DNA of 64,000 nucleotides from Ruficoccus amylovorans (GTDB taxonomy: Bacteria > Verrucomicrobiota > Verrucomicrobiia > Opitutales > Cerasicoccaceae), in assembly GCF_014230085.1 (NCBI RefSeq), contig NZ_JACHVB010000035.1, positions 372,001-436,000 on the forward strand, read 5' to 3'. How positions within the stretch are numbered: position 1 is the first letter of the stretch; each line of letters starts with the position of its first letter. Below are positions 3,678-53,607 of the stretch, in pieces. Below the pieces are notes generated by a model that did no database searches, had not been told where the DNA came from, and was given only the letters and a program-made list of their open reading frames with translations. The translations under genes were made by a program, and so were the position numbers.

Positions 3678-3832
3678 TTGCCGAGGAGGGGGAAGGGTGT
3701 TGTCCCGTTTGCGGATCCACACATTTCCCGACGAACCAGCCCTGACTACCAACAGGTGCAACGGCGTGTCGGCGGCGGGCTTTCGGTCCATCTTGCGCCA
3801 GCCGTTCCATGCGTACCCTTAACCATACTTAT

Positions 3833-5701
3833 ATGAAAAACAGGAGATCTACTTTTACTTTGATAGGCCGGGCGCTTTTGTTCGCCGGTCTGATGCCGGT
3901 TGCTTCCGCCCAAGTCGATATCTCGACGCTCGGGGTCAAACCAGGGGATGCGACCGACAACACCGAAAACCTCCAGCGCGTCCTGAACGAGGGACCGGGC
4001 ATGCTATTTTTCCCAGCCGGAACTTACCGGACGGGCACAGTAGAAGTCCCTGCCAACCGTACGCTGATCTTCGACCCCGAGGCGGTCGTGCAGCCTGTAG
4101 CGGACAAGGTGAAGGATAAAAACCTCTTCGTCGTGACCGGTAATGACGTGCAATTCCGGGGGCTTCATTACGATTTTGCCGATGGGGGCAAGGATGTGAA
4201 CGAGACTGCTGTCTGGAATCTGGTTTACGCCGACGGCGTGTCGAACCTGGTGGTCTCCGAGGCGGACGTTGGCAATACGGACGAGCGTGGTCTCGTGCCT
4301 CTGAAGGAGCGCAAGCGCCGCGGCCGCCTGCTCAACCGCGACGGTTCCGACCCGGCCAAGAAGTACAACCACAACGGCTACTACAACTCCCAGGTGCTGC
4401 TCTGGGTGGTCAACTGCCGCGATGTGGTGCTCGAGAATTCCAAAGGTTTCCGTTTGCACGCGATGCTGCATGCGACGTCTTCGGCTAACGTCACTGCCCG
4501 CGGCAACCATATGGTCAGCGGCAACTACATGACGAAGTTTCTGGAAGGTTCGGAAAACCTTCGCCACCACGATAACTGGTCCCGCGACGTGAAGTACCAG
4601 GTCTGCTGGTTTGGCGGTTCTCCTGACCCGTCGCGCAAGCCCTATCTGCCCCGCGGTTCCTCGACCGTGGCCAAGCGCGAGGTCAAGCCCGGCGAGTCCG
4701 GTTACAACCCCCACACCTCGGGTGCCTTTGACGTGCTCGTGCAGAACAACTACGCCGAGTATGGCAACACGCTGGCCTGGGGAAACAAGGGCCGCCAGGT
4801 CGTGATTGACAGCAATATCGCCCGCTTCATCTCGGACTACGCCTATGGCAGCGAAGGGGGCGAGAACCTGGTCTTCTCGAACAACATTTCGATCAACTCA
4901 ACGGCGGGTGGTATCGTCTCGATGTACTGGGGCGAAAAGCTGCTCATCACCGGCAACCTGATTATGGTCCGCCATGAGCCGTGGGAAGAGGAGTGGAGCT
5001 GGTGGGACAGCCCCGCGAAGTACCTCGGGCCGTTCGTGCGCCTGCACCACGGCCCCTCCAACGAGGGCGATATGTACGGCTCCGGCACGGTCATGATTAC
5101 CGGTAATCTCTTCTCCAACGAGCTCTCCACCCGCACGACGGATATCTCCATCCAGGCCGGACGCGACGTGACGGTGAGCGGCAACAAGTTCATCAACGGG
5201 CGCGTCAACAAGTTCGGCCCCGGTAAGGTCACGGTGATGGATAACGAGTTCGTCTCCCGCCTGGAGTATGATCCGCTCAGCGTGAATATCATGCCGCGCG
5301 GCTCGGATATGGTCATCGTCAAGGGCAATATCTTCCGCCAGGAGGCTCCGATTATGCCCACGGACGAGCAGCTCGCCTCCTCCGAGGCCAGCAAGGTGCC
5401 GTACTTCCTTTTCACCGATGACGATCCCAACGCCGAGGCTGAGGAGGGCGCTGTCACCGGCGACATGCCCGCGATCTCCATCGAGGCAAACGGGCCGTTC
5501 TTCGGGCTGGTGGAAGATAACGCGATTTACGGCTGGATTGACGCGATTTCCGGTCAGATCCGTTCGAATGTGGCCGGGGCTTCCATCCTCGTGCTGAAGA
5601 ACACCACCGATGGTATCATCACCGTCGACTCCAGCAACCCGAAGTCCACTGCCCTGGTTGAGAACAACACGGAAATCCCGGCGGGGCTCATGCCGCAGTA
5701 A
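3833..5701 (+). CDS. Secreted right-handed parallel beta-helix protein, pectate-lyase-like
   Basis: About 622 residues. The ATG at 3833 (MKNRRSTFTLIG..., signal peptide ending VASA) is preferred over an in-frame ATG at 3809. After the signal the sequence VDISTLGVKPGDATDNTENLQRVL...FFPAGTYRTG is the classic opening of the pectate-lyase-3/glycosyl-hydrolase-28-like beta-helix fold. The rest has repeated short N-rich rungs (e.g. VTARGNHMVSGNYM, VTVSGNKFINGR, ITGNLFSNE), typical of a parallel beta helix binding polysaccharide. Catalytic residues cannot be assigned with confidence, so lyase, hydrolase or epimerase activity is left open. The symporter gene follows 115 bases later on the same strand, so uptake of the released product is a reasonable inference. 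Confidence 0.8.
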   Translation: MKNRRSTFTLIGRALLFAGLMPVASAQVDISTLGVKPGDATDNTENLQRVLNEGPGMLFFPAGTYRTGTVEVPANRTLIFDPEAVVQPVADKVKDKNLFVVTGNDVQFRGLHYDFADGGKDVNETAVWNLVYADGVSNLVVSEADVGNTDERGLVPLKERKRRGRLLNRDGSDPAKKYNHNGYYNSQVLLWVVNCRDVVLENSKGFRLHAMLHATSSANVTARGNHMVSGNYMTKFLEGSENLRHHDNWSRDVKYQVCWFGGSPDPSRKPYLPRGSSTVAKREVKPGESGYNPHTSGAFDVLVQNNYAEYGNTLAWGNKGRQVVIDSNIARFISDYAYGSEGGENLVFSNNISINSTAGGIVSMYWGEKLLITGNLIMVRHEPWEEEWSWWDSPAKYLGPFVRLHHGPSNEGDMYGSGTVMITGNLFSNELSTRTTDISIQAGRDVTVSGNKFINGRVNKFGPGKVTVMDNEFVSRLEYDPLSVNIMPRGSDMVIVKGNIFRQEAPIMPTDEQLASSEASKVPYFLFTDDDPNAEAEEGAVTGDMPAISIEANGPFFGLVEDNAIYGWIDAISGQIRSNVAGASILVLKNTTDGIITVDSSNPKSTALVENNTEIPAGLMPQ

Positions 5702-5816: not shown

Positions 5817-7847
5817 ATGCATATCATTGACTGGTCAATCATGTTGCTTTCGATCGCCCTCGTCGCGGGCTTCGGGATCTTTACCCGGCGCTACATGCGC
5901 AGCGTGGCGGACTTTATGTCCGGCGGGCGTGTGGCCGGGCGTTATTTGCTGACGGTTTCCAAGGGCGAGATGCAGGCCGGGGCGGTCGTCTTTGTCGCAG
6001 TCTTCGAGATGATTGGGCAGGCAGGGTTCACCATCACCTGGTGGCAGTGGATTCAGGTCCCGGCCATGCTGGTGGTGGCGATCTCCGGCTTTGTCATCTA
6101 CCGCTTCCGTGAGACGCGGGCGATGACGCTGGCTCAGTTTTTCGAATTGCGCTACAGCAAGTCGTTCCGTGTTTGCACTGGGGTCATGGGGTTTGTCGCC
6201 GGGGTGCTCAACTTCGGGATCATCCCCTCGGTCGGGGCACGTTTTTTTGTGTACTTCCTGGGGCTGCCGCCCGAGCTGGATCTGGGGTTCATGGCGCTGC
6301 CGACGTACATTCCGCTGATGGGCTTCTTCCTGTCGATCACGCTGCTGCTGACGATTTCCGGCGGCCTGATCACCGTCATGGTGACGGATTGTCTGGAGGG
6401 AATGCTTTCGCAGCTTTTCTATATCGTGATTATCGCGGCGCTGCTGCTGCTGTTTTCATGGGATGAAATCAGCACGGTGCTCGCCAGCCGCGAGGCCGGG
6501 CACTCGATGCTGAATCCCTTCGACGCCTCTTCGGTCAAGGACTTCAACGTCTGGTACGTGTTGATGACAATCCTGCTCGGCGTGTACGGCACGATGGCCT
6601 GGCAGAACGCCAGCTCGTATAATGCGGCGGCGTTGACGCCCCACGAGTCGCGGATGTCGGGCGTGCTCAGCCGCTGGCGCGAGTACGGGAAGGCCTCGGT
6701 CGTGACGCTGTTGGCCGTGTGCGGGTTGACCTTCCTCAACAACGCCGATTTCGCCACACAGGCGGCTCCGGCCATTCATGCTATCGATCAGATTGCGGAC
6801 CCGCAGGTGCGCTCGCAGATGCAGATCCCGGTGGCGCTCTCGTACCTGCTCCCGCTCGGGATCAAGGGTGCGCTGTGCGCGGTGTTTCTGATGGGGATCT
6901 TCGGGGGTGACTCCACGCACTTGCATTCCTGGGGGAGCATTTTCGTGCAGGACGTGCTCGTGCCGCTGCGCAAGCGTCCCTTCGGGATGAAACAGCATAT
7001 TCGCGTGCTGCGGCTGTCGATCACCGGGGTGGCCGTGTTCGCGTTTCTGTTCGGCTCACTTTTTAGACAAACTGAGTACATCATGATGTGGTGGCAGGTG
7101 ACGACGGCGGTCTTTGTCGGAGGGGCCGGGGCTGCCGTGATCGGCGGGCTTTACTGGAAAAAAGGCACCACGGCGGGCGCCTGGTCCGCGTTGATCACGG
7201 GCTCGACCCTGTCGCTGAGCGGGATCCTGCTGCGGCAGATTCTCAAGGACGATTTCCCGCTGAACGGGATTCAGATTGGGTTTTTCACGGCGCTGATCGC
7301 GATTCTGGTGTACATCACCGTGTCGCTTATCACGTGCCGCGAAGACTACAACCTCGACCGCATGCTCCACCGGGGCAAATACGCTGCGGTCAAGGACAAG
7401 GTTGGTGATGCGGACCCGGTTCCGCCAAGGCGCAGGCTGAACTGGGGCCGTATCATCGGCTTCGACGGGAATTTCACCCTCGGGGACAAGTGGATCGCAG
7501 GCGGCTTGTTCGGATGGGGGATATTCTGGGCAATGGTTTGCATTACCGGTTCGATCTGGAATTGGGTCGCTCCCTGGCCGGTTCATGTCTGGTCCTCGTT
7601 CTGGCATGTGGTGGGCATCCTGATTCCGGTCCTGATGACGATTGTCACCGGCATCTGGTTTACCTGGGGCGGTATCCGCGATATGCGCCGGCTCTTTGTC
7701 AGCCTCAGAACCCAGACCAGTAGCGAATTTGACGATGGCACGGTGGTGGGTCACCTGAACCTCGACGAGGCCGTGCAGGAGGAGGAAGCCCCTGCTGCCG
7801 AGGGAATAAACCGACCCGCTAATGATCCTGCTTACAGGCAAAAGTGA
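5817..7847 (+). CDS. Sodium:solute symporter (SSS family)
   Basis: 676 residues with about 13-15 hydrophobic segments. It begins MHIIDWSIMLLSIALVAGFGIFTRRYMRSVADFMSGGRVAGRYLL, the usual SSS start with TM1 and the F(F/M)xGGR-type segment. Middle helices such as IIPSVGARFFVYFLGLP and a long helical tail extending past residue 550 resemble the large carriers of Planctomycetes and Verrucomicrobia. SSS proteins bring in sugars, sugar acids or related solutes with Na+; the substrate cannot be read from the sequence. It follows the beta-helix gene by 115 bases and may be co-transcribed. No strong ribosome site is visible. The C-terminus from about 630 is acidic and probably cytoplasmic. Confidence 0.88.
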   Translation: MHIIDWSIMLLSIALVAGFGIFTRRYMRSVADFMSGGRVAGRYLLTVSKGEMQAGAVVFVAVFEMIGQAGFTITWWQWIQVPAMLVVAISGFVIYRFRETRAMTLAQFFELRYSKSFRVCTGVMGFVAGVLNFGIIPSVGARFFVYFLGLPPELDLGFMALPTYIPLMGFFLSITLLLTISGGLITVMVTDCLEGMLSQLFYIVIIAALLLLFSWDEISTVLASREAGHSMLNPFDASSVKDFNVWYVLMTILLGVYGTMAWQNASSYNAAALTPHESRMSGVLSRWREYGKASVVTLLAVCGLTFLNNADFATQAAPAIHAIDQIADPQVRSQMQIPVALSYLLPLGIKGALCAVFLMGIFGGDSTHLHSWGSIFVQDVLVPLRKRPFGMKQHIRVLRLSITGVAVFAFLFGSLFRQTEYIMMWWQVTTAVFVGGAGAAVIGGLYWKKGTTAGAWSALITGSTLSLSGILLRQILKDDFPLNGIQIGFFTALIAILVYITVSLITCREDYNLDRMLHRGKYAAVKDKVGDADPVPPRRRLNWGRIIGFDGNFTLGDKWIAGGLFGWGIFWAMVCITGSIWNWVAPWPVHVWSSFWHVVGILIPVLMTIVTGIWFTWGGIRDMRRLFVSLRTQTSSEFDDGTVVGHLNLDEAVQEEEAPAAEGINRPANDPAYRQK

Positions 7848-7930: not shown

Positions 7931-10900
7931 ATGAAAGTTTCCCCTAAAGACGCACTTCTGGCCAAGAGCCGGAGGAGAGGCTTTGCACTCATTGTCGCGC
8001 TGGCCCTGATGTCTTTTATCTTTCTGCTCATCATGAGCCTGACGACGCTGGTGCGGCTGGAGTCTCAGGTCAGCGCGACGAGCGTGGAAATCAGCCGCGC
8101 CCAGCAGAACGCGCTGTTCGGGCTGCGTGCAGCCATCGGCCAGCTTCAGGAGATGGCTGGGCCGGACCAGCGGGTGACGGGAACGGCCGGACTGGTCGAA
8201 GGTCTGTCCCAGCCCTTGCATGCGAACTGGACCGGTGTTTGGGATGTCTCCGGGCTCAACCCCCACGCGGCCTTCACGGAGCCTGCGGTAGCGGGGTGGC
8301 TGGTGTCAGGGACGAGCACGTCCGGCGGTTCGCTGGAACCGGGCTCCACCGTCAAGGACCCCATCCTGCTGGTGGGCGAGGGGAGCGTGGCCGAACCTGA
8401 CGACCAAGTGCAGGCGGGCCGTGTCGCGATCTCTTCCGAGGGTGAGGAGACCGGTCACTTCGCTTACTGGGTGGCCGACGAAGGGGTCAAGGCGAAGGTC
8501 AACCTGAACGACCCCCACCGACGTGCTTCCAGTGGTACCAACGAGGAAAAACGTTATTCGCTCATGAGCGCGCAGCGTTTCGGGGTGGAGAACATCTCGA
8601 CGGAAGCTTCCGGCGGTGGAAAGAAAATCGGCGAAATCATTACTCCGACCGATGAAACCTCAGAGGCTGAGCTGCTGCGCTTGGCATCGGTCAATCAGCT
8701 CGGCGTCATCAACAGCGAACTGGACCCGGTGCGCAAATACCGCTTCCACGACCTGACGACTTATGGCAAAGGACTGCTGACCAATACCGCGCAGGGAGGC
8801 CTGAAGAAAGACCTCAGCCTGGCCTTTGAGATGGACCTTTCGGATTTCAATGCCAATGACGCTTTTGCCGCCGCTGGCGAGTCCGTCCCCAACCTGAGCG
8901 CGCACAGGGTCAACTACCTTTTCGCCTTTGATGACTTCGGCAGCCCCCGGCCGGCGGCTTCGGACGCCTTGGCACGCGGTCCCACCTGGCACTTGCTGCG
9001 CAACTACTACCGACTCTACAAAAACGACGACCCCGACCGTAACCAGTCTTACAAAACCGGTCATCCACGCGGCGTCGAGTCCAGCGGCAGCGGCTACAAG
9101 ATCGAGGCGAGACCGTATTTTCCCAATCCGCCCAATAATGGTTCAAAGACCGGATCGGTCACCGAGGGCTATTACTTTGCCGGGTCTGACCCGGTGGCTC
9201 GTGCCCAGTACACGAACAAAAGTGGCGCGAATGTCGATCTGGCTCGGGAAACCGATATGCCGATCAATCCGATCGTGCTTCGCGAACAGTTCATCCTGAG
9301 CCTTGAGACCGTTCTCGAACAGGAGGCCGTCGCTGCGAACGAAGAAACTGGCACTCCCCGCATCCCGGCCAAATACCGGTTAAATATGAAGATTGCGCCG
9401 CGGATCAGCATCTGGAACCCGTACAACGTGAAACTGGAATTCGACTCGATGGTGGTAAACCTGGTCCATACCACGATCAAGACCAGTATCAATGTGGAGA
9501 AAGGCACGAACCGGGAGTACGAGCTGAGCAACATGCTCAACGGGCAGAATATCAGTCTCATATTGACAGCTGCTGGCGGAGGAAAAACAACGCTGGAGCC
9601 CGGCGAAATCGTGATCTATGCGATGTCGGAGAATACTTATATGCCAGCAAGCGGTACCCTCGAAAGTGCCTGCCATCCGTATGGAGGGCCGATCGCCGAG
9701 CTCCCTGGGATTCTCTTTGACGAGCTGGACCTGGATGATAAGGACAATAACAATCATGTCCTTATCGTCGAAGACGATGAGAATATCCTGATTTCCGGCG
9801 AAACCGGCACATTTATGCAGAGCTTTATCCGGCTCGGGCGCTCGGTTGGTGGATCTGACGAGATTCGCGACGTGCACGCCGGACGCCTCAAGGCTTCCAA
9901 TGTGATCACATGGCCTCCAGATGGAACCGCGGTCACACTCATGGATCTGGACGCGGACGGCTTGCTGGCGGTTCCGCTCCCCATCGCTGTGATGGATACC
10001 TACCTGAAGCCTGCCTCGGATAACGAGCCGGTACAGTTTCTCACTCACTATAATCCGCGTGCGAGCCATTTCCGGCGCTCGACGGGCGTAATGGAAGAAG
10101 AGGACTTGGGAGAAGGGCCGGTCAACCCCGGGAACTGGAGTTTCAGTCTGGGGGAACTTTCGAGCTGGAATGACGGCTCGATCCCGACGGCCGGCTCCTG
10201 GGGAGATGATAACGAGACTGGCCATACCCATGTCGTGTTGTTCGAGATCCCGACGCTGCCCATGCAGTCACTGGCCGGCTTCCAGCACGTTAACAACGTG
10301 ACTCACTACGCGCAGCAGCCCGCTTACCCGATTGGCAACTCCTACGCCAATCCGTACATTGACCGCGAATCGCTGAGCCGCACGATCTCCGCCACCAACA
10401 GCGGCAAGACCGAGCACTACACCCAGCTCGACTGGTCCTACCTGAGTAATGAGGCGCTTTGGGATGAGTACTATTTTTCCACGCTTGTGCCCCGGGCCGA
10501 CCTGGGCATGGACGACAGTGACTGGAACGCGTTCGTCACGGGTTTTGCCAATGGTACTTACGGGTTGTCAAATTCCCGCATCAGACTGCTTCCGGGAGCC
10601 GCTCCGGCAGACTTCGTCGAAACCGTGCTCGGCAGTTCCGGGGGAAATGACATTGACGCGGATGCCTACGAGCAGGTTGCGGCCTCACTGGCGGTGGATG
10701 GGGCGTTTAACGTGAACTCCACCTCGGTGGAGGCGTGGAAAGCGCTTCTGAGTGCGACCAACGGGATCGACGTTTCCTACCTCAGTGGCGGGGGAGGCAG
10801 CCAGTCCACCGCCAGTTCCCAGGACAACCCCTACAGCCGTCTGAGTCTCCCCAATGACCGGGCGGACAGGCCTTGGACCGGCTTCCGTGCGCTGACTGAA

Positions 10901-11434
10901 GCGCAGATCGAAGACTTGGCCGAAAAGATCGTGGAGCAGGTGAAGCTGCGCGGGCCTTTCGTTTCGATGGCCGATTTCGTCAACCGCCGCCTGGCCGATG
11001 ACGATACCGGCTTGAAGGGGGCCTTGCAGGCGGCTATCGACGAGACGACGATCAATAATGACTTTTCCTCCAAGGTGAACAGTTCCGACCTGAGTTCCTA
11101 CAACATACCGTTCGTCGATCACGCGGTTGGGCCGATCGAGTCGGGGGCCACAGGCTACCTGCGCCAGGCGGACCTGCTGCAGACGCTTGGGCCGGTGCTG
11201 TCCGCCCGTTCCGATACCTTCACCATCCGCGCCTATGGAGACTCGGTCAATCCGGTGACAGGCGCCGAAGTCCGCGCCTGGTGCGAAGCTGTCGTCCAGC
11301 GCACTCCGCAGTACGTGGATAATTCCAACCGCCCCGAAGACACGCCCGGCACTCCGCTCAGTGCGGATAACGAGCGTTTCGGTCGCCGCTTCGAGGTCGT
11401 GTCTTTCCGCTGGTTGGGCGAAGACCAGATTTAA
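7931..11434 (+). CDS. Verru_Chthon cassette protein A-like giant pseudopilin-type protein (copy 1)
   Basis: 1167 residues. The N-terminus RRRGFALIVALALMSFIFLLIMSLTTLVRLE is a single membrane helix like the one in PilX/GspK-type minor pseudopilins, without the canonical Glu5. A very long exported domain follows. Landmarks shared with the second copy (49166-52774) are the GPDQRVT near residue 75, WTGVW, AYWVADEGVKAKVNL, GPTWHLLR/PPTWGLLR, WNPYNVKLE/WNPYNRPLE, NVNSTSVEAWKA, a KLRGPFVSMADFVNRRL segment and the C-terminal AWCEAVVQR...FGRRF-V-SFRWLG. This matches my knowledge of the Verru_Chthon A family, otherwise found in multi-gene pseudopilin cassettes; here only A plus one partner is present. 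The next gene starts 12 bases after its stop. Confidence 0.75.
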   Translation: MKVSPKDALLAKSRRRGFALIVALALMSFIFLLIMSLTTLVRLESQVSATSVEISRAQQNALFGLRAAIGQLQEMAGPDQRVTGTAGLVEGLSQPLHANWTGVWDVSGLNPHAAFTEPAVAGWLVSGTSTSGGSLEPGSTVKDPILLVGEGSVAEPDDQVQAGRVAISSEGEETGHFAYWVADEGVKAKVNLNDPHRRASSGTNEEKRYSLMSAQRFGVENISTEASGGGKKIGEIITPTDETSEAELLRLASVNQLGVINSELDPVRKYRFHDLTTYGKGLLTNTAQGGLKKDLSLAFEMDLSDFNANDAFAAAGESVPNLSAHRVNYLFAFDDFGSPRPAASDALARGPTWHLLRNYYRLYKNDDPDRNQSYKTGHPRGVESSGSGYKIEARPYFPNPPNNGSKTGSVTEGYYFAGSDPVARAQYTNKSGANVDLARETDMPINPIVLREQFILSLETVLEQEAVAANEETGTPRIPAKYRLNMKIAPRISIWNPYNVKLEFDSMVVNLVHTTIKTSINVEKGTNREYELSNMLNGQNISLILTAAGGGKTTLEPGEIVIYAMSENTYMPASGTLESACHPYGGPIAELPGILFDELDLDDKDNNNHVLIVEDDENILISGETGTFMQSFIRLGRSVGGSDEIRDVHAGRLKASNVITWPPDGTAVTLMDLDADGLLAVPLPIAVMDTYLKPASDNEPVQFLTHYNPRASHFRRSTGVMEEEDLGEGPVNPGNWSFSLGELSSWNDGSIPTAGSWGDDNETGHTHVVLFEIPTLPMQSLAGFQHVNNVTHYAQQPAYPIGNSYANPYIDRESLSRTISATNSGKTEHYTQLDWSYLSNEALWDEYYFSTLVPRADLGMDDSDWNAFVTGFANGTYGLSNSRIRLLPGAAPADFVETVLGSSGGNDIDADAYEQVAASLAVDGAFNVNSTSVEAWKALLSATNGIDVSYLSGGGGSQSTASSQDNPYSRLSLPNDRADRPWTGFRALTEAQIEDLAEKIVEQVKLRGPFVSMADFVNRRLADDDTGLKGALQAAIDETTINNDFSSKVNSSDLSSYNIPFVDHAVGPIESGATGYLRQADLLQTLGPVLSARSDTFTIRAYGDSVNPVTGAEVRAWCEAVVQRTPQYVDNSNRPEDTPGTPLSADNERFGRRFEVVSFRWLGEDQI

Positions 11435-11446
11435 GGAGACACCCAC

Positions 11447-12148
11447 ATGAAAAAATCCCCGCTCTCGATTCTCACCTTCCTCCTGCTTCTTGGAGCCTTC
11501 TTCCCCTTGCGCGCTCAGGAGGAGCCTCCCTTGCGGGTCCATTTCACCTGTCTGGCCTGGGATGGCGTTCATGCGAGCGGACTTCACTACCTCGATGGAG
11601 GGGAACTGGTTCCTTTACGCATTTCCAGTGTATTTCGCGGCAAGTCCCACGAATACGCCGGCACGAACCCCATTGTATTTTACCGCACCGAGGCACTGGC
11701 GGATGGCACCGTCCAGCGCATTCCGGCGGCCAGCGCGACTATCCCCGCAGGCATGAATGACGTGCTCTTGCTTTTCCTGCCCGCGACGCCCGGACAGGAG
11801 AACGGGCCTGAGTTTAACATCGTGGTCATTGATGACAGCCCGTCTGTGTTCCCCTGGGGCTCCTATTGCATTTACAACCTGAGCGCGTACGAGGTGGGAG
11901 GCATTATCGGGAGCGAAAAATTTGTCCTGCCGGGAAAGAAATCGCGCATCGTGATTCCCGACTCCAAGGATGAAGTTGATGTGCAGATCCACTTTAGCCA
12001 AAAAATCGACGGGCAATGGGTTCCCAAGGTGAATACGCGTTGGGTTTACCGGAAAAACGGACGCAGCATCGTTTTCGTTACCGATGACGTGACTTCCCGA
12101 AAACCCCGTTTGAAAATCAAATCTATCGACCAGTTTACCAGTAAATAG
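11447..12148 (+). CDS. Secreted partner of the Verru_Chthon A-like protein (copy 1)
   Basis: 233 residues. A strong AAGGAG site overlaps the stop codon of the upstream gene, which argues for tight co-translation. Signal peptide: MKKSPLSILTFLLLLGAFFPLRAQ. The mature protein is all-beta in appearance and has no known domain that I recognise. It aligns with the protein at 52828-53607: both have a short LxWDG/F-DGWKCSG segment, RIPAASATIPAGMNDVLLLFLP versus IATVPAGIRQPLIVLCQLP, a middle I-NLSAYEVGGIIG versus I-NMSRYPTMMAFGG segment, a PGKKS/PGQST motif, and a WVYRKNGRSIVFV versus LFLRKNGRHYVLL ending. Each copy follows a Verru_Chthon A gene, so the two probably work together at the cell envelope. 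Confidence 0.75.
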   Translation: MKKSPLSILTFLLLLGAFFPLRAQEEPPLRVHFTCLAWDGVHASGLHYLDGGELVPLRISSVFRGKSHEYAGTNPIVFYRTEALADGTVQRIPAASATIPAGMNDVLLLFLPATPGQENGPEFNIVVIDDSPSVFPWGSYCIYNLSAYEVGGIIGSEKFVLPGKKSRIVIPDSKDEVDVQIHFSQKIDGQWVPKVNTRWVYRKNGRSIVFVTDDVTSRKPRLKIKSIDQFTSK

Positions 12149-12261
12149 CTGCAACAGATGAGGGCTGAATATGGCCCGCCAGCCGACCGTTTTCGGGGTG
12201 AGTGGTTCGCATCTTTAATGAGGCTGCGGTTTGTTTCGTATAAGCGGTAATGGAGAATATT

Positions 12262-13650
12262 ATGTTGGGGAAAACGATTTTTTACGCGGCGGCCATGTCG
12301 GTTGGGGTGATTGGGCAGGCTGCCGATCAAGTGCCGGGCGGGCATCCGAATATCATTGTTATCGTAGCGGACGACCTCGGACACGGTGATCTCTCTCTGA
12401 CCGGTTCGGAGGAGATCAAGACGCCGAATATCGACAGCCTCGCGGCCAACGGGAGTTTCTTCACCGACGCTTATATTTCCGCTCCGGTCTGCCTGCCCAG
12501 CCGGATGGGGCTGATGACCGGCACCTATCAGGAGCGGTTCGGGGTGCAGACGCTCGCCGGCCCGGGCGGGACGCGTGACTACGGCATCCCGGCGGATCGC
12601 CCGACGCTGGCCCAGGAACTGAAGGCGGATGGGTACACGACCGGCGCGGTCGGCAAGTGGCACCTCGGGGAACGCGAGGAATACCTGCCGAACCAGAAAG
12701 GCTTCGACGACTTTTATGGCTTCATCGGCGGTTCGTTGCCATACTTTCCGGACAAGCCGGGGATGATCTGGCACAATGAGAGGAATGTAGAGAAAACCCA
12801 ATACATGACCGACGACTTCGGCGAGCGTGCGGCGGCCTTTATCGAGGAGAATCGTGGCGATCCGTTTTTTCTCTATCTGGCATTCAGCGCCGTGCATCTG
12901 CCCCTGGAAGCGACGGAAAAATACATCGAACCCTACAACCATATCAAGGACCGCAGCCGCCGCACGTACGCGGCCATGACCACGGCGATGGATATAAATA
13001 TCGGGCTGGTGCTCGACGCTTTGCGGAAAAACGGCCTGTACGAAAATACGCTGGTGTTCTTCGTCAGTGACAATGGAGGGTTTCCTCGTTTCTGGGCTTC
13101 CAACGCGCCGTTTCAGGGGGGCAAGTACGTGCTCTACGAGGGCGGCATCCGCACACCTTTTCTTGTCCAATGGCCCGCGGGCGGCGTTCCCGCTGCCCGG
13201 CGTTTTAGTGAGCCGGTCAGCGCGCTGGATATCTTTCCCACGGCTCTTGCCGCAGCCGGAGCTGAGTATTCAGGCCCGCACGCGCTCGACGGGGTGAACC
13301 TGCTTCCCCTGCTGCGTGGGCAGACGGACAAAGCTCCGCACGAACGCCTCTACTGGCGGTATGGACCGTACATGTGCGCCATGCGCGAGGGGGATTTTAA
13401 AATCCTGAAAAACGGAACCGGCGACAACAAGACCCCGCAGTGGGCATTATATGATATCGTCAACGACCCCGGCGAGACAATGGACCTTTCCACCCGGATG
13501 CCGGACAAATTCTCGGCGATGAAGAACGCTTTCACTGTCTGGGACGAGGCCCTGCCGGAGCCGGATTTCATTGACCAAAGGCTGGTTGAAGGCATCGCCT
13601 GGTGGGAGGTAAAGAAGAAGGGACACGAGCCTGTTCAGGAGCAGGATTAA
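12262..13650 (+). CDS. Sulfatase (S1 family), exported
   Basis: About 462 residues. The ATG at 12262 is preferred over 12250 because GGAG at 12252-12255 sits correctly upstream and the first codons then form a signal peptide (MLGKTIFYAAAMSVGVIGQAA). Motifs: IIVIVADDLGHGD near residues 33-44 (metal-binding Asp pair), and VCLPSRMGLMTG with Cys77 in the C-x-P-S-R sulfatase signature, the residue converted to formylglycine by a separate enzyme. GKWHLG and FVSDNGG complete the active-site set. It removes sulfate esters from a glycan or other organic sulfate; the substrate is unknown. A 12-base palindrome follows the stop. No formylglycine-generating enzyme is present in this window. Confidence 0.92.
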   Translation: MLGKTIFYAAAMSVGVIGQAADQVPGGHPNIIVIVADDLGHGDLSLTGSEEIKTPNIDSLAANGSFFTDAYISAPVCLPSRMGLMTGTYQERFGVQTLAGPGGTRDYGIPADRPTLAQELKADGYTTGAVGKWHLGEREEYLPNQKGFDDFYGFIGGSLPYFPDKPGMIWHNERNVEKTQYMTDDFGERAAAFIEENRGDPFFLYLAFSAVHLPLEATEKYIEPYNHIKDRSRRTYAAMTTAMDINIGLVLDALRKNGLYENTLVFFVSDNGGFPRFWASNAPFQGGKYVLYEGGIRTPFLVQWPAGGVPAARRFSEPVSALDIFPTALAAAGAEYSGPHALDGVNLLPLLRGQTDKAPHERLYWRYGPYMCAMREGDFKILKNGTGDNKTPQWALYDIVNDPGETMDLSTRMPDKFSAMKNAFTVWDEALPEPDFIDQRLVEGIAWWEVKKKGHEPVQEQD

Positions 13651-13662
13651 AGCGATATCGCT
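13651..13662. repeat. 12-base perfect palindrome after the sulfatase stop codon
   Basis: AGCGATATCGCT directly after the TAA of the sulfatase gene. It could be a weak transcript-end hairpin or a protein-binding site in the leader of the RegB-like gene; nothing further distinguishes these. Confidence 0.3.
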
Positions 13663-13811
13663 CTGATCCGAAACCCAGGCCAGTCACGTTATTTTCCGCG
13701 TTCCGTACTGGTTGTTCGGAGTGTGACGTTCTCGGGGGAGGCGTGTGGGCCCATTATGTCTATTCGATTACGCCTTGCCAGCGGGCGGTGGGACGATGTT
13801 TAACTGCGGAG

Positions 13812-15119
13812 ATGCCTTTTTCCGCTGCCAGCGAGAGTCCAGTCGATAAAAACCCCGGGCTGAGCCTGCTGATCAACCTGCGTTGGCTGGCTCTGGGCGG
13901 GCAGGTCGGGCTGTGTATCTTTTCCCAATTGGCCCTCGGGATGTTGCTGCCCTGGCGAGTGTTGCTGCCCTGCATGGGTGTGACCGCATTGACAAACGCG
14001 GCGGCGGTGCTCCTCAAAAAACGGGGCATCGCCCGGGGGCAAAGCTTGTGCGCGGGCCTGCTTACGCTCGATACACTGACGCTTACAGTAATGCTCTACT
14101 GGACGGGCGGCTCGCATAATCCTTTCGCGATTTTTTACCTGCTGCACATCGCCATCGCGACCATTCTGCTGTCGTACTCGATGGCGTGGGCCTCGGTGCT
14201 ACTGTGCGCGGGGTGTTACGCGTTGCTGTTTCGCTCGCCGCACATCATTCCGAGTCTGTCCGGGCACGAGTTCTGCGGGTCGATGGACTTCCATCTGCAC
14301 GGCATGCTGCTGTCGCTGGTTCTCGTGGGGATGGGCATCGTGTTTTTCGTCGGGAGGCTCAGGATCATGCTGGCCCGGCGCGAGGCCCAACTCAAGGAAG
14401 CGCATATGCGCAGCGTGCGTAACGAGCGTTTCGCGGCGCTGGCCACACTCGCTGCGGGCGTTGCGCACGAGCTGGCAACACCGCTGGGGACGATTGCCCT
14501 GGTCAGCGAAGATCTGGCTCAGCAGGCCGGGGACGGCTGCAGGAGCACCGGCTGCATGAAAGACGCGGCGCTGATCGGCTCCGAAGTCGAACGCTGCCGG
14601 GTGGTGTTGGAAAAACTCCGCCTGCAAACGACCGAGGGCGCGGGCGACCCGTTTCTGGAATTGGCCATCGGGGAGATACCCTCGCTGCTGACGCCTTACC
14701 TGAAGCCCGAGCACCTGCGGCAGTTGCATTTCAAAAATCAGTGCCTGAGCCGTTCGGTCCGCCTCCCGCAGACGGCGTTGCTTCAGTCGCTGGCTGTGCT
14801 GGTCAAAAACGCCTGCCAGGCGGACATCAACCACAAGGGGGTTTTGCTGATTGTTTCTGAGGCAGAGGGTAAAATTCGCTTCATGGTGGAAGACGAGGGC
14901 AGGGGAATGCCCGCCGATGTGGTTGAGCGGTTGGGGGAGCCGTTTTTCACGACCAAGGCACCGGGTGAAGGCATGGGGCTGGGACTTTTTCTTGTCAGGA
15001 TGTTCGTCGAGCGTATCAATGGCGACTTGCAGGTAGACTCTACAGTGGGCCGTGGAACGCGGGTGACGCTTGTGATTCCCCGGCACGAATCAGGCAGCGA
15101 TGAAAATACTTCTGATTGA
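13812..15119 (+). CDS. regB: RegB/PrrB-type redox-sensing histidine kinase
   Basis: About 435 residues with the ATG at 13812; the open frame extends to 13602 but that stretch overlaps the sulfatase gene and has no kinase features. Six membrane helices lie in residues 15-185. GGSHNPF at about 99-105 matches the GGxxNPF quinone-binding motif of RegB. The H-box LAAGVAHELATPLG places the phosphorylated His at about 219. A Cys in the ERCR segment at about 262 lies where RegB has its redox-active cysteine. The N-box (NACQA), G1 (DEGRGMP) and G2 (GMGLGLFL) of the ATPase domain are intact. Its frame overlaps the response regulator by 20 bases. RegB-RegA systems are known mostly from proteobacteria, where they respond to quinone redox state. 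Target genes here are unknown. Confidence 0.88.
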   Translation: MPFSAASESPVDKNPGLSLLINLRWLALGGQVGLCIFSQLALGMLLPWRVLLPCMGVTALTNAAAVLLKKRGIARGQSLCAGLLTLDTLTLTVMLYWTGGSHNPFAIFYLLHIAIATILLSYSMAWASVLLCAGCYALLFRSPHIIPSLSGHEFCGSMDFHLHGMLLSLVLVGMGIVFFVGRLRIMLARREAQLKEAHMRSVRNERFAALATLAAGVAHELATPLGTIALVSEDLAQQAGDGCRSTGCMKDAALIGSEVERCRVVLEKLRLQTTEGAGDPFLELAIGEIPSLLTPYLKPEHLRQLHFKNQCLSRSVRLPQTALLQSLAVLVKNACQADINHKGVLLIVSEAEGKIRFMVEDEGRGMPADVVERLGEPFFTTKAPGEGMGLGLFLVRMFVERINGDLQVDSTVGRGTRVTLVIPRHESGSDENTSD

Positions 15120-16666: not shown

Positions 16667-17464
16667 ATGAGACGCTTGAGTACACTGATACTGGTGCTGG
16701 TCTTGTCCCAGACGGCGACGCAGGCCGCGACCCTGGACATGATTCCCGGCCCCGACGATACGGGCGGGATGGTCATGCCGCTGGTTTACCTGAACATGGA
16801 ACAGCAGAGCGTGACGATCGACGGTTCGCAGGGTACGCTCATTCCCATGTATTCGCTCCAGGACTACGAAGTGTGGGGAGCGTATCCGTTTTCCGATACG
16901 GTTTTCAATCCCTCACAGTCGGAGCAGGAGTGGTACGACTTGCTGGACCCGACCCGGCAAAACCTGCCCTTCAGCACGCGCTACGGTTTTGAGGTTATTT
17001 CGGGGAATGCCTCGTCCCTGCCCGCGGGCTCCTATGTCTATATCAAGGCGACCTCGATCGACGAGGGGCTGAAAATCTACGATGTGGGCTACTGGGCCGA
17101 TGTCTGGCAGCACGAAGGCGATCCGGGCACCTGGATACAGGTGTTCGGGGAGGGCAACTTCGGCTCGGCCTACGGGCTGGATAATATCGCGGCCTGGGGG
17201 GATGCCAGCACAATCAAGATGTGGCACCCGGTCGTGGTTTCGACCCGGACGGGGCTGCTGTCCGCGACGTTTGAAATCTACGTCGGGGACGGCTATGCGA
17301 ATCCGCTGGAGGGCTGGACGAGTGACACGACAACCCTGAGTTGGGAGGTGCCGGTAGTGCCGGAGCCTTCCACGCAGGTGGCTTTGCTCGCGGCGCTGGC
17401 AGTGCTGGGACCGGTGCTGGGGTCTCGCCGCCGCGTCCGGTTCCGAACCGGGCATGCCCGATGA
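16667..17464 (+). CDS. PEP-CTERM surface protein
   Basis: 265 residues with signal peptide MRRLSTLILVLVLSQTATQAA. The mature part opens with LDMIPGPDDTGGMVMPLVYLNMEQQSV and includes the paired elements SVYYFNAGSDDW-like and YDVGYWADVWQ; it resembles the preceding gene product in size, segments (NPSQSEQEWYDLLDPTRQNLPFSTRYGFEV versus NPGDYFASGSGWASLLNPPAQGG) and general order, so the two are likely distant paralogues. The C-terminus VVPEPSTQVALLAALAVLGPVLGSRRRVRF is a PEP-CTERM signal. Its stop codon overlaps the start codon of the following pseudopilin gene (ATGA), which points to translational coupling. Confidence 0.85.
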   Translation: MRRLSTLILVLVLSQTATQAATLDMIPGPDDTGGMVMPLVYLNMEQQSVTIDGSQGTLIPMYSLQDYEVWGAYPFSDTVFNPSQSEQEWYDLLDPTRQNLPFSTRYGFEVISGNASSLPAGSYVYIKATSIDEGLKIYDVGYWADVWQHEGDPGTWIQVFGEGNFGSAYGLDNIAAWGDASTIKMWHPVVVSTRTGLLSATFEIYVGDGYANPLEGWTSDTTTLSWEVPVVPEPSTQVALLAALAVLGPVLGSRRRVRFRTGHAR

Positions 17465-42210: not shown

Positions 42211-42268
42211 GGATTGAGACTCCGTAATAAACCTTTGGTGGTAGTTGAGGTATTGGTTTAGGGGCTTC

Positions 42269-42306
42269 CCGGGAAGGGACGGACTGCTGATGCCGCCCCC
42301 TCCCGG
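42269..42306 (-). terminator. Hairpin between the strand-repeat gene and the pseudopilin gene
   Basis: CCGGGA at 42269-42274 pairs with TCCCGG at 42301-42306, with further inner GGG/CCC and CGG/CCG pairing. It begins about 30 bases after the stop of the upstream gene at 42336. Confidence 0.45.
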
Positions 42307-42335
42307 AGAAGGATTCCCTAAAAGGGCGCGCAAGC

Positions 42336-49009: not shown

Positions 49010-49165
49010 AACCAATCTGATTCCTGTACCCGCGATATATAACCACCCCAGCCCCCTTCTGGTTTTGATTCTCGAGTTTTGGGTCTCTTCGTTGCCGCTG
49101 GAGGGGATGGCTCCTTTATCGAGATTAAGTCAAAGCTACAAATTGATCGTTTGTATTTTACTCCC

Positions 49166-52100
49166 ATGAGACACGATTATTCTTTGCCCGTCAGCACCTC
49201 TCGTTTCCCGAATAGTGGCAGAAGCGGATTCGCTCTCATTATCGCACTGGGATTGATGAGCTTCATTTTTCTGCTTCTGGTCTCCATGGGGACGATGGTG
49301 CGTGTTTCTCTTAGCACCGAGAGTCAGGCGACGCTGACCACGCAGGCCCGTCAGAATGCCCTGATGGGGTTGAACATTGCGATCGGTGAACTCCAGTGGT
49401 ATGCCGGACCGGACCAGCGTGTGACAGCCACCTCAAGTATCCTGGGAGCCTCGGAGACTCAGGTCGGCACCAAGTACTGGACCGGAGTTTGGGGTAATGC
49501 CGGGGCTGCGGACGACACCCGGGAGCCGGAACTGCTTAACTGGCTGGTCAGTGGTAACGAGGAACAGAAGGAATCGATCAGCTTTTCCATGACTGGTAGT
49601 TCATTCGGGCAGATCCAGTCGGCTGGGAATCCCGCCGTTAAGCCCGATGAGGTCTTGAGCCCCTCGTTAACGGCTGGCGCGAGCGCGCAGACGGATTTCA
49701 AGATCGGGGCAACGGATGCTCGCCTGTTGGTGGGAGCCGGTACACTTGGCACGGCCACCGGGGCCGAGGATGGTTATGTGCTTGCCCCGCTTGTGACGAT
49801 CAACGAGTCCGATCAGGGGATCGGAGTGGAGAATCGCTACGCCTACTGGGTGGGCGATGAGGGCGTGAAAGCCCGGATTAATCTGGTCAATCCCTGGCCC
49901 CAGAGCGCTGGAGGTACCGACGCCGCCAAGGAGCGCATCAGCAGCTTTGGCATGGCACAGCGGGCCGCGACCGAGCAAATTTACGGGCTGGAGTCCTTGC
50001 CTTCGGGCGCTTTGGCGGAAAACGATTTTCTGGAAAAAGTCGTCAACAACGCGCAGCTCTCATTTTTGTCAAGCAGCGTCAACTCATCGAATGTGCAGGC
50101 CCGTTTTCAGGACATCACGCCCTACAGCCTCAGCGTGCTGGCCGATTCACGTCACGGCGGCTTGAAGCGGGACTTGACGCAGATCCTGCGGAGCGGGGGC
50201 GGGAACTCCGACGAGGCCGACGACAAGTTCATCTTCCCGACCAGCAGCGGCTCATACGGTCCCTCCGGTTCGGCCTTCTACACGCAGCCGCCGACGTGGG
50301 GGCTGTTGCGCGATTTCGCGGGTTTTCAGGACAGCCTGAGCGACTGGACCACTCCGTTGCAATCGCAGACCCCGACCTCCACCCGCCAGGGGATATCACC
50401 GATTATCGTTTATGGTGGCATGGTCTATAGCTGGCGCGTGCTTGAGGATGCGGACGATCCGCAGCAAATGATACTCTCGGTATACGCCTCGCCGCGCTTT
50501 TTCCTGTGGAATCCCTATAACCGTCCGCTGGAAGGCGGCACATTTGAGATCGGCTTTATTCCTCCGCGCAAGGATGACAGCCTGGGTGAGAAAGGGATCA
50601 TCACTTTCGATTTTGCGGAGTCTACGCTGACGTCGTTCAATAATTACAAATACTACTTCAACGTGGGGAAAGGAGGCTTCGTTCTGTCGCCGACGAATAC
50701 GGACCGCGAGATGATGCGCTTTCGAGTGGATATGCCGCGCAACTGGGAGCCTGGTGAAGTGGTTTCCTTCAGCCTCCCCTCTGGCACCGATACCGTCTTT
50801 AGCTCGGGCAACACTACGCTGAGTCCTGAGCAGCCGGTTGATCCGCGTTTGTACGCTGCTGATGCCCGGCTATTGATGGCCTCGCAGGTGATTCCGATGG
50901 CCGCCCCAGTCAGTGACCCGAATGCCTCATGGTCTATCAAGGCCACGACCTATCTCAGAAATATGGGTGAGGTCAGCATGTTTCTGGGAGAACCTGGAGC
51001 GGGTGGTGCCGGAGCCTCTGCGGCGATTGATCCGGGGAGCGGCAATCATTTTTACCAATGGATCGGCCGGGTGGAACCCATGCATCATAATAGCGGTAAT
51101 CCAGAAGTCATTGAGGTGATGGATGATGCCCCCATGATTGATTCTTACGGAGAGGCAATCTCTCCTCGGAATATCTTAAACTACGAGATCTATCATAAAC
51201 TTTCCATTGCGAATGTTTACCAGCCAAGCCTGCCGGTAAAGTGGATTGCTGCGGGCAATAGTCGTGCTTATATGCAAAACCGGACCGGCATGGAGAGTGG
51301 AGACGTGGATGACCTCGTCGTGAATCCGCTGTATGTCGGATACTCAAACTGCTTTGAATACTCCACCCACCGGGTTCCTTTCCGCTATCAGGGGGAAGAG
51401 GCTACAATAGGCAACGATTACAATAACACCAGCTATGGCGAACGCTTTGTCCGTCCGGCCTTGTTTGAGGTTCCTTCGCAAGTGGCGCCTCTGCTTTCCA
51501 TTGCCGATTTACGGCATGCGAATACCTCGATACACGCTACCGGCCCAAGCTATGCGATTGGTAATTCTCTCGCGGACTTTCGGATTGGCCGTGACCAGAC
51601 GAGTGTCTATGTCGGCTCTGGTTATCTGGACCCCTTGACGGGAGCTGCTGTTGAGATGGGGCCGCTGGCGCAGACCCTGTACGACCAGTCCTACCTGCTC
51701 AACGACGCTCTGTGGGATCGCTATTATTTCTCGACGTTGCCGGATTCCGGGACGCTTCAGGCTCCGTTGCCCAATAGCCGTCATCTGCTTCTGGAGCAGG
51801 ACGGTGTGCAGCCAACGTTGGATGATCTGACTCAAAACAGCAGCGGGTCGGATGATCCGGTGGTGGCGGCTTCAAAGATGATGCTTGAAGGTGGCTTTAA
51901 CGTGAACTCAACTTCGGTGGAGGCCTGGCGGGCGGTTTTGTCCGGTCTGAATGGCCTCGCCTATGACCCGACCGACCCCACCAAGGATGATGCGGACACT
52001 TTGATCAACCCCTTCTCGCGTTACCGCATCACCAAGAGCCGAAGTGAACGTCCGGTGTACAGCGGTAGCAGTACCGAGTATATGGTCGATTACTGGAGCG

Positions 52101-52774
52101 GATATCGCGAGATGACGGACGATGAGCTAACCGGGCTGGCGCAGCGCATCGTCGAGCAGGTGAAGCTTCGTGGTCCCTTTCTGTCTCTAGCCGATTTCGT
52201 TAACCGCTCGCTGGACGGTGATGACGAGTTTACCCTTAAAGGAGCGATTCAGGCTGCGATCGATGATGAAGGGGCCGGAAACAGCGCCGAGAGAATCAAT
52301 TATGTGAAGGAAACAAACTCCACCGAAGGCGGTGGTCGGCACCTGTCAAACTATACGGATGCTGTTAATTACGGCTATGGTGATGGGTGGTCCTCGAGTT
52401 ACGATCTGATGTCTTATCTGGGCTATGCCGGGGCCAACTCGCGGGACGTGAAGAACAACCCATTCACGCGTACGAGTACCTTTGCGCCGGGGGATATCAC
52501 GCAAGGGGATGTGTTGGCTGCGATCGGTCCCTCTTTGGCCACACGCTCTGACACATTCACGATCCGTGCCTATGGCGAAGTGCTTAATGCGCTGGACAGT
52601 AGCGTCAAGGCGCAGGCTTGGTGCGAAGCAGTTGTGCAGCGGATGCCCGACTATATGGATGACACCGACAGTGCGGAAACGGCGCCGGCGGAACTGGTCA
52701 GCCAGGTTAACAAGACTTTCGGGCGACGCTTTGTCGTCACGTCTTTCCGCTGGCTTGGGAAGGATGATGTTTGA
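49166..52774 (+). CDS. Verru_Chthon cassette protein A-like giant pseudopilin-type protein (copy 2)
   Basis: About 1202 residues with the ATG at 49166 (MRHDYSLPVSTSRFPNSG); the earlier in-frame ATG at 49079 lies in the AT-rich leader. Then RSGFALIIALGLMSFIFLLLVSMGTMVRVSLSTESQ gives the one membrane helix, followed by GLNIAIGELQWYAGPDQRVTATS. It matches copy 1 (7931-11434) along its length: AYWVGDEGVKARINLVNP, LADSRHGGLKRDL, PPTWGLLRDF, FFLWNPYNRPLE, NVNSTSVEAWRAVLSGLNG, IVEQVKLRGPFLSLADFVNRSL, DTFTIRAYGE and AWCEAVVQRMPDY...FGRRFVVTSFRWLG. This is an exported, probably envelope-spanning pseudopilin-type protein. Its partner gene follows directly. Confidence 0.75.
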   Translation: MRHDYSLPVSTSRFPNSGRSGFALIIALGLMSFIFLLLVSMGTMVRVSLSTESQATLTTQARQNALMGLNIAIGELQWYAGPDQRVTATSSILGASETQVGTKYWTGVWGNAGAADDTREPELLNWLVSGNEEQKESISFSMTGSSFGQIQSAGNPAVKPDEVLSPSLTAGASAQTDFKIGATDARLLVGAGTLGTATGAEDGYVLAPLVTINESDQGIGVENRYAYWVGDEGVKARINLVNPWPQSAGGTDAAKERISSFGMAQRAATEQIYGLESLPSGALAENDFLEKVVNNAQLSFLSSSVNSSNVQARFQDITPYSLSVLADSRHGGLKRDLTQILRSGGGNSDEADDKFIFPTSSGSYGPSGSAFYTQPPTWGLLRDFAGFQDSLSDWTTPLQSQTPTSTRQGISPIIVYGGMVYSWRVLEDADDPQQMILSVYASPRFFLWNPYNRPLEGGTFEIGFIPPRKDDSLGEKGIITFDFAESTLTSFNNYKYYFNVGKGGFVLSPTNTDREMMRFRVDMPRNWEPGEVVSFSLPSGTDTVFSSGNTTLSPEQPVDPRLYAADARLLMASQVIPMAAPVSDPNASWSIKATTYLRNMGEVSMFLGEPGAGGAGASAAIDPGSGNHFYQWIGRVEPMHHNSGNPEVIEVMDDAPMIDSYGEAISPRNILNYEIYHKLSIANVYQPSLPVKWIAAGNSRAYMQNRTGMESGDVDDLVVNPLYVGYSNCFEYSTHRVPFRYQGEEATIGNDYNNTSYGERFVRPALFEVPSQVAPLLSIADLRHANTSIHATGPSYAIGNSLADFRIGRDQTSVYVGSGYLDPLTGAAVEMGPLAQTLYDQSYLLNDALWDRYYFSTLPDSGTLQAPLPNSRHLLLEQDGVQPTLDDLTQNSSGSDDPVVAASKMMLEGGFNVNSTSVEAWRAVLSGLNGLAYDPTDPTKDDADTLINPFSRYRITKSRSERPVYSGSSTEYMVDYWSGYREMTDDELTGLAQRIVEQVKLRGPFLSLADFVNRSLDGDDEFTLKGAIQAAIDDEGAGNSAERINYVKETNSTEGGGRHLSNYTDAVNYGYGDGWSSSYDLMSYLGYAGANSRDVKNNPFTRTSTFAPGDITQGDVLAAIGPSLATRSDTFTIRAYGEVLNALDSSVKAQAWCEAVVQRMPDYMDDTDSAETAPAELVSQVNKTFGRRFVVTSFRWLGKDDV

Positions 52775-52827
52775 GCGTTATGAGCAAAGTCTACCCCGGA
52801 AATTTTCTCGTGAACAATATGGTTAGT

Positions 52828-53607
52828 ATGAAACGATTTGGGTCTCTCCGCAGGCTGCGGCGAGGCGTCGTGGGCGGAGGCCGGTGTCTGGGACTTTTGA
52901 TGCTTGCCGCCGGAGTGCTGCTTCCTTCCGTACGAGCGCAGGTGGAGGAGCAGCCAAAAAACACCTTTCGGCTGACGGCTTTGAGCGGCTCATTCGATGG
53001 CTGGAAGTGCAGTGGTTATTCCTCCTCGGACAGTTTTCAGCCGATCATTGCCCAGCGGTACATCTCGGGACCATATCCGTTGGAAGACCGGCGGATGGTC
53101 TTCTTCAAACAGGATGAGGCAACTGGCGAGAAGGCGACGCAGACGATTGCTACCGTTCCGGCGGGGATTCGTCAGCCCTTGATCGTGCTGTGTCAGCTTC
53201 CTCAACGATTGGAAGACGGTACCGTGCTACCCTATACCGCACTGGTTCTAGATGATTCGCTGAAGAGTACCCCGTTAAACTCTATTCGTATCGTGAATAT
53301 GTCCCGGTATCCGACCATGATGGCCTTCGGAGGGCAGACTCCGGCGGAACTGGCCCCCGGACAGAGCACGCTGGTCAGCCATCCGCCTCTGGAAAAGGAC
53401 ATGTCTGCGGTGATGCAATTAGCGGTCAGTGCTCCGGGTGGAGAATGGAAAAAGAAGAAGGGGGAACTCTTTTTACGGAAAAACGGGCGCCATTATGTGT
53501 TGCTGAACCTTGACCCTTTTTCCGACGACACGATTCCCAGCTCGAATCAGTTGATTACGATTTCCGACCTGAGGCGGCTCCCTCCGGTGCTGATCGAACA
53601 GCCGTAA
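52828..53607 (+). CDS. Secreted partner of the Verru_Chthon A-like protein (copy 2)
   Basis: About 259 residues if it starts at 52828 (MKRFGSLRRLRRGVVGGGRCLGLLMLAAGVLLPSVRAQ signal peptide). In-frame ATGs at 52780 and 52819, and a TTG overlapping the previous stop, are alternatives; no good ribosome site separates them. It is a paralogue of the 11447 product: FRLTALSGSFDGWKCSGYS, VPAGIRQPLIVLCQLP, IVNMSRYPTMMAFGGQTPAELAPGQST and GELFLRKNGRHYVLLNLDP have counterparts there. No known domain is recognised. As in the first copy it follows a Verru_Chthon A gene almost without a gap, so the pair is a conserved unit. Confidence 0.72.
   Translation: MKRFGSLRRLRRGVVGGGRCLGLLMLAAGVLLPSVRAQVEEQPKNTFRLTALSGSFDGWKCSGYSSSDSFQPIIAQRYISGPYPLEDRRMVFFKQDEATGEKATQTIATVPAGIRQPLIVLCQLPQRLEDGTVLPYTALVLDDSLKSTPLNSIRIVNMSRYPTMMAFGGQTPAELAPGQSTLVSHPPLEKDMSAVMQLAVSAPGGEWKKKKGELFLRKNGRHYVLLNLDPFSDDTIPSSNQLITISDLRRLPPVLIEQP

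Follow-up and report, generated by a model that had tools for sequence, protein, structure and literature searches.

Background

The GspK-type subunits of the type II secretion system (T2SS) cap the fibre of the pseudopilus, together with GspI and GspJ, and do not build it, and GspK lacks the glutamate at position 5 (Glu5). In the Bacteroidota a locus-specific part is played by the SusC/SusD pairs; how large polysaccharides are captured by the Verrucomicrobiota is poorly settled. We report the computational analysis of a two-gene unit that occurs twice in a 64,000-nucleotide stretch of the genome of Ruficoccus amylovorans (Opitutales, Cerasicoccaceae; assembly GCF_014230085.1, contig NZ_JACHVB010000035.1, positions 372,001 to 436,000), here called the window. 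The first gene, A, encodes a giant protein with the predicted fold of GspK and the second, P, encodes a smaller exported partner. An earlier note, made from this DNA alone, took A for a Verru_Chthon A protein (profile TIGR02600) standing with a secreted partner in a reduced pilin cassette. We find that the A-P unit is conserved and more widespread than this two-copy view allowed, and we propose, at what we consider about even chances, that it is a dispersed pseudopilus-tip module, in which one shaft would serve many exchangeable tips for glycan loci.

Pseudopilins have been met before in a setting of this kind. According to the available part of the report on Verruconatronum alginivorum (PMC13274419), one gene in an alginate-induced cluster of this Opitutales strain encodes a PulG-like pseudopilin, for which the genome has 67 homologues, some copies being traced to Cerasicoccaceae, so that a role for a pseudopilus in polysaccharide use is plausible by analogy, albeit with a different pilin type. 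The order, the many copies per genome and the polysaccharide-induced cluster are the points of likeness to A-P; the proteins themselves are PulG-like and are not shown in that part of the report to belong to the A family, nor does it describe P. Our search of the literature, which covered open-licence papers and whose negative outcome is accordingly weak, found no paper on 'Verru_Chthon' and none relevant by its title on GspK in Verrucomicrobia.

Results and discussion

Copy number and linkage of A and P

Copy 1 of the unit is organised as the earlier note had described it: an AAGGAG site overlaps the TAA stop codon of A (11432-11434) and ends 8 nucleotides before the ATG of P at 11447. The recurrence of the unit 41 kb away also holds, since the two copies have homologous A proteins (35% identical over the main segment, BLASTP E 1e-70) and homologous P proteins (24% identity, E 5e-11), and the genome contains many more; of the two copies, only copy 1 has the overlapping AAGGAG. 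Using phmmer over the stretches fetched around matches, and a simple longest-ORF (open reading frame) choice for the gene calls, we count 21 long A genes and one fragment in the R. amylovorans genome. As ORFs the long copies span 987-1264 amino acids, and P lies directly downstream of A in 19 of them, the other two (at loci L044 and L046) being A genes without P.

Two of these loci were inspected by eye. At L049 (G000:C40, 2417-4657) a P domain comes after the A fragment and shares its reading frame with a sialic-acid-acetylesterase-like sequence, and the unit looks decaying or fused. At L046 (G000:C20, 5317-11078) the 987-amino-acid A gene without P has a peptidase-M16-like gene as its neighbour. 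Genes of M16-like appearance also occur near the single-copy A-P units that other families carry at L086, L087 and L092, and the L046 site may be an ancestral locus from which P has been lost.

The linkage is retained in relatives. Among the named loci, which are the 79 top-scoring of at least 575 relatives confirmed, lean to close relatives, include several from one genome and in some cases hold two A genes, P follows 77 of the 85 A genes with room for it, on the same strand and at most 2 kb downstream; one of the eight counted as lacking P is the first part of an A gene that is split in L165, and the second part does have P. Cerasicoccus frondis is among the carriers of A-P loci, L163 being an example. 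Approached from the side of P, A lies upstream in 28 of the 32 loci chosen around P matches (L080-L099 and L138-L149), at a distance of about 1 kb in L098, the exceptions being L088, where a D-like pilin is upstream and A is missing, L140, L148 and L149. At L140 (G064, 9266-13899) P stands just before A and not behind it. The named and unnamed sets may share genomes and their counts are not summed. The earlier note had named a P usually found away from A genes as the result that would refute it, and the loci show the opposite arrangement.

Across genomes, P was found in 33 of 52 from the order (0-22 matches per genome) and in 19 of 145 from the phylum, and all 19 of the latter also match A; the phylum counts for A are of genomes and not of copies, at most a handful of A candidates being scored in each. 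The group f29 g49, which may be Akkermansia, includes a genome with a lone P (L148), and at five of its loci (L150, L151, L152, L154 and L159) the A genes are seen in head-to-head pairs without P, one A of L150 adjoining a symporter-looking gene.

A has the predicted fold of GspK

The assignment of A to Verru_Chthon A fails the profile search, an outcome that the earlier note had itself listed as refuting. The A proteins score 14.8 bits (copy 1) and 20.8 bits (copy 2) against the curated TIGR02600 cut-off of 332.3, none of the 14 weak matches in the genome lies above it, and matches above it occur in 2 of the 145 phylum genomes. Membership of TIGR02600 is therefore rejected. Eight strict TIGR02600 loci fetched from genomes G111 and G123 hold no P, several of them showing the pilin genes of the classic cassette, and at neither window unit are there adjacent B, C and D pilins. 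Local hhalign of A with eight strict TIGR02600 proteins matches the N-terminal 67-72 columns at a probability of 97-98% and gives further matches that are weak (probability below 4%) and mostly co-linear, while global mode gives nothing; from the N-terminal and weak co-linear matches, A appears to be a remote relative of Verru_Chthon A. The two share the pilin helix, the size and the weak co-linear motifs, and in two relatives (G007 and G035, below) A stands beside D-, B- and C-like pilins; they differ in profile score and in the presence of P.

The AlphaFold2 model of A, built from 76 sequences (pLDDT 83.6, pTM 0.87), consists of a helix (residues 18-76) and a mixed globular part. When the top 1000 chains of Foldseek were re-examined with VIA-align 2, only three of the 997 chains aligned to the model reached a Z of at least 5, and all three are GspK/XcpX: 3ci0_K, 5vtm_X and 6utu_C, with Z of 11.8, 11.7 and 11.6, respectively, over 226-245 residues at an rmsd of 3.0-3.2, the next chain scoring 4.3. 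The best alignment places 245 of 280 GspK residues over residues 46-1167 of the model, and the wide spacing of these roughly 240 aligned residues implies that the GspK scaffold of A is broken by large insertions. Pilin helix and scaffold together give A the GspK fold in the model, and the earlier description of A as pseudopilin-like is borne out to that extent. Furthermore, Glu is found at mature position +5 in none of the 73 rows of the A alignment with a residue there, as in GspK. By sequence the resemblance is remote: the two window copies score 13.6 and 16.1 bits against the cut-off of 130 bits for the GspK equivalog NF037980, 13 of the 21 copies in the genome match it weakly (E up to 0.1), and A has no sequence relatives in the PDB. 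The least conserved stretch of A is residues 301-750; between copy 1 and eight of its 20 paralogues in the genome, identity is 35-42% in residues 18-300, 22-30% in 301-750 and 40-48% in 751-1167.

Judged on the model, A appears better described as a GspK-type tip pseudopilin than as Verru_Chthon A, and the A-P unit is a variant of a T2SS-like pseudopilus tip, with a partner matching no family in the libraries searched. In addition to the fold and the missing Glu at +5, A resembles GspK/XcpX in being, in relatives, the last pilin gene of a G-H-I-J-K-like order. It differs in its length, the two T2SS GspK proteins of the same genome having 446 and 385 amino acids, in its large variable insert, its roughly 20 dispersed copies and its downstream P, and in its score far below the NF037980 cut-off.

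P is a predicted tandem beta-sandwich protein

P begins with a signal-peptide-like sequence, which is lipobox-like in 2 of 78 members (76 of the 83 listed P proteins and the two from the window), so that the secretion proposed for it earlier is also predicted here. Its AlphaFold2 model (pLDDT 93.4) has two beta-sandwich domains and is most similar to the extracellular domain pair of PepT1/PepT2 (Foldseek E 5e-6, TM 0.49; VIA Z 13.6 over 177 residues for PepT2), and the second domain matches, among others, single domains of AlgF (Z 8.8 and 9.1) and transthyretin, which reflects a common fold. The likeness to PepT1/PepT2 and AlgF is confined to the tandem beta-sandwich fold, identities in the structural alignments being 5-12%, and a shared fold shows no function. 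There is no Pfam match in the 19 members scanned (best E 0.11), no NCBIfam match for the two window copies and no convincing sequence relative in the PDB (best E 0.4), and we saw no hint of enzyme or pilin identity. P is thus predicted to be an exported tandem beta-sandwich protein and not a pilin.

The distances among A and among P proteins are correlated in Mantel tests, both for 19 pairs of the genome (r 0.33 for the scaffold and 0.32 for the insert of A) and for 74 named pairs (r 0.64 and 0.68). A shared duplication history alone explains this correlation, which is consequently no evidence for contact between A and P.

Pilin operons and a candidate shaft

No pilin genes adjoin copy 1 or copy 2 in the window; PulG-like pilin genes were seen elsewhere in it at 17341-18159 (+) and 41455-42333 (-). 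In two relatives the operon is fuller. In G007 (L081) three pilin genes precede the unit in the order D-B-C-A-P, and in G035 (L089) the order is G-D-B-C-A-P, parallel to GspG-H-I-J-K, where D was called by search and G, B and C by eye. Relative to these operons the A-P unit is indeed reduced, as the earlier note had it. Homologues of the three G007 pilins (28%, 27% and 29% identity) form a single cassette in the R. amylovorans genome; it lies on C21 behind two GspG-like genes and has no A. The pilins of C21 and G007 match Verru_Chthon D, B and C of NCBIfam weakly, below the TIGR02596/98/99 cut-offs.

Of the 52 order genomes, 29 have a single long match each to the D-like pilin (E no higher than 1e-9, 100 positions or more); the search model came from three of these 29. 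The pilin is present in 27 of 33 genomes with P and in 2 of 19 without (Fisher P 8e-7), and with one genome per family, such subsets being the sole correction made for relatedness, in 12 of 14 and 1 of 14 (P 7e-5).

The genome also encodes two T2SS operons, on C63 and C5, with secretin and ATPase. Each has its own GspK, both of these proteins scoring below the NF037980 cut-off (83 bits, E 2e-23; 115 bits, E 5e-33), and A is therefore extra to these systems. A large dispersed pilin family is present besides, with 56 N_methyl matches above cut-off.

Glycan neighbourhood and synteny

The order beta-helix protein, A, P, sulfatase of copy 1 is kept in three species, the other two being a member of the same genus (L097) and Verrucomicrobiota bacterium JB024 (L160). 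The beta-helix protein is 81% (L160) and 72% (L097) identical and the sulfatase 72% in both; P is 59% identical in L097 and 68% in L160, and the A insert 52-57%. For this one unit, synteny and insert identity suggest that orthologous tips stay with the same enzymes and that paralogous tips diverge. The membrane-protein gene that separates the beta-helix gene from A in the window is missing at the corresponding site of L160 and L097.

Eight of the 22 units have a sulfatase within 10 kb, compared with 2.8 expected from a genome-wide draw (P 0.005) and 4.4 from a draw within the same contig (P 0.03). Of the 42 sulfatase matches 41 were used, a 45-position fragment being dropped; the genome-wide draw treated unit-free contigs as sulfatase-free, although they hold two sulfatases, and slightly favours enrichment, a flaw from which the same-contig draw is free. 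Among 67 pooled near neighbours, taken up to two genes to each side, the families include SSF (5), sulfatase (3), rhamnosidase, SASA, LacI-type binding domain and the heparinase C-terminal domain (2 each). Each of these occurs fewer than twice among the matches listed for 90 control proteins, from 20 stretches chosen at round coordinates away from the units, and the heparinase N-terminal domain occurs once in either set. The 67 were drawn from 72 listed neighbours, one of the others overlapping P and four looking like shadow ORFs.

A proposed tip module and its alternatives

From the presence of one shaft cassette and of some 20 A-P units, a portion of which have sulfatases, sodium:solute symporters or other glycan genes as neighbours, we propose swappable, glycan-matched tips. 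A would be exported and cleaved by the prepilin peptidase, and its helix would cap a short pseudopilus assembled from D-, B- and C-like pilins, as counterparts of GspH, I and J, together with GspG-like subunits, so that the variable insert of about 450 residues might be displayed at the tip. P, probably exported through its signal peptide and co-produced with A, may bind the tip or its ligand. The single D-B-C cassette would then serve all of the A-P units, each of which would fit a tip matched to one polysaccharide to the common shaft, whether for capture or for export of the matching enzyme. If this is true, a dispersed, locus-specific family of tips with an exported partner would be a concrete and testable part of such a capture system, and pseudopilus tips would be able to diversify separately from their shaft. 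More doubtfully, we suggest that the giant GspK tips and beta-sandwich partners of the Opitutales, locus-specific and about 20 to a single shaft cassette, play a part comparable to that of the SusC/SusD pairs.

A number of observations weigh against this proposal. Of the 43 A-bearing genomes among the 145 of the phylum, 24 have no P match; 14 of these are f29 g49, 5 belong to the same order, 2 carry strict TIGR02600 and 3 have weak N-terminal matches only. Within f29 g49, P stands beside none of the 13 A genes with room for it. Foldseek alone gives no significant match for A, with XcpX at rank 24 (E 1.6). The co-occurrence of D and P is weaker in genomes of at least 2 Mb (26 of 32 against 2 of 7, P 0.012; with one genome per family, 11 of 13 against 1 of 4, P 0.053), and six P-bearing genomes have no long D match. 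Pilin genes, taken as the 56 of 60 matches over cut-off, are not enriched near the units, being found within 10 kb of 7 of 22 (5.0 expected, P 0.20) and within 5 kb of 1 of 22 (3.3 expected). The sulfatase enrichment is moderate, its same-contig P being 0.07 at 5 kb, and for 16 of the 22 units no sulfatase is that close. The neighbours in the named set, of which 59 out of the 69 listed were used, taken at every second locus and with no control, are a mixture of glycan families and housekeeping genes, with sulfatase, LacI and GntR (2 each) and GH42, GH3, SASA and SSF (one each), and the single-copy A-P units of several genomes adjoin housekeeping genes.

The presence of two T2SS operons also weighs here, since A could sit on those instead. 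Of the alternatives, the one that survives best, though we think it unlikely, is that A is an alternative GspK of one ordinary T2SS and P a secreted cargo chosen by each A. The two operons with secretin and ATPase, the GspK fold of A and the signal-peptide-like start of P all suit it; that each T2SS already has its own GspK, and that in G007 and G035 the A-P genes are part of a separate pilin operon, argue against it. It is less probable still that the helix of A is a mere membrane anchor and A-P a stationary, SusD-like glycan receptor of the envelope, with no fibre, an arrangement in keeping with units that are dispersed without adjoining or enriched pilins among transporters and glycan enzymes; however, the model of A matches the GspK scaffold beyond the helix, and two families have A-P in one operon with pilin genes. 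A Verru_Chthon cassette in reduced form, its fibre built by A alone and with P, as the earlier note suggested, as substrate or stator, would account for the N-terminal and weak co-linear TIGR02600 matches and is the least credible of the three, given a score under the family cut-off, the capping and not building role of GspK-type subunits and the pilin set that exists elsewhere in the genome.

Features of the window

The features of the two units and the syntenic neighbours of copy 1 are collected in Table 1.

Table 1. Positions of the A-P units and neighbouring features in the window
Feature	Position	Strand	Basis and remarks
Secreted right-handed beta-helix protein, syntenic neighbour of copy 1	3809..5701	+	PF13229
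Membrane protein, sodium:solute-symporter-like by eye, between beta-helix gene and A	5817..7847	+	ORF
A copy 1, giant GspK-type minor pseudopilin (predicted), 1167 aa	7931..11434	+	ORF; GspK fold; pLDDT 83.6; region conservation
Layout of A copy 1: helix at residues 18-76; variable insert at about 301-750, flanked by the conserved scaffold at about 18-300 and 751-1167			
Putative prepilin cleavage of A copy 1, between G17 and F18			
Candidate recognition region: the variable insert in A copy 1 (codons 301-750)	8831..10180	+	Least conserved stretch
AAGGAG ribosome-binding site of P copy 1	11433..11438	+	Sequence; overlaps stop codon of A
P copy 1, exported partner (predicted), 233 aa; signal peptide and beta-sandwich domains 29-129 and 140-230	11447..12148	+	ORF; AlphaFold2 pLDDT 93.4; fold matches
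Sulfatase, syntenic neighbour of copy 1	12250..13650	+	PF00884 at G000:C35:384346-385263
A copy 2	49079..52774	+	TTG-start ORF, homology; ATG 49166 gives a normal short leader
P copy 2	52771..53607	+	ORF, homology; may start at TTG 52771 or at an internal ATG, e.g. 52828

Behind copy 2, at 53659-54297 and 54352-55089, we noted a tandem of two similar-looking secreted proteins, the second of which has a PEP-CTERM-like end.

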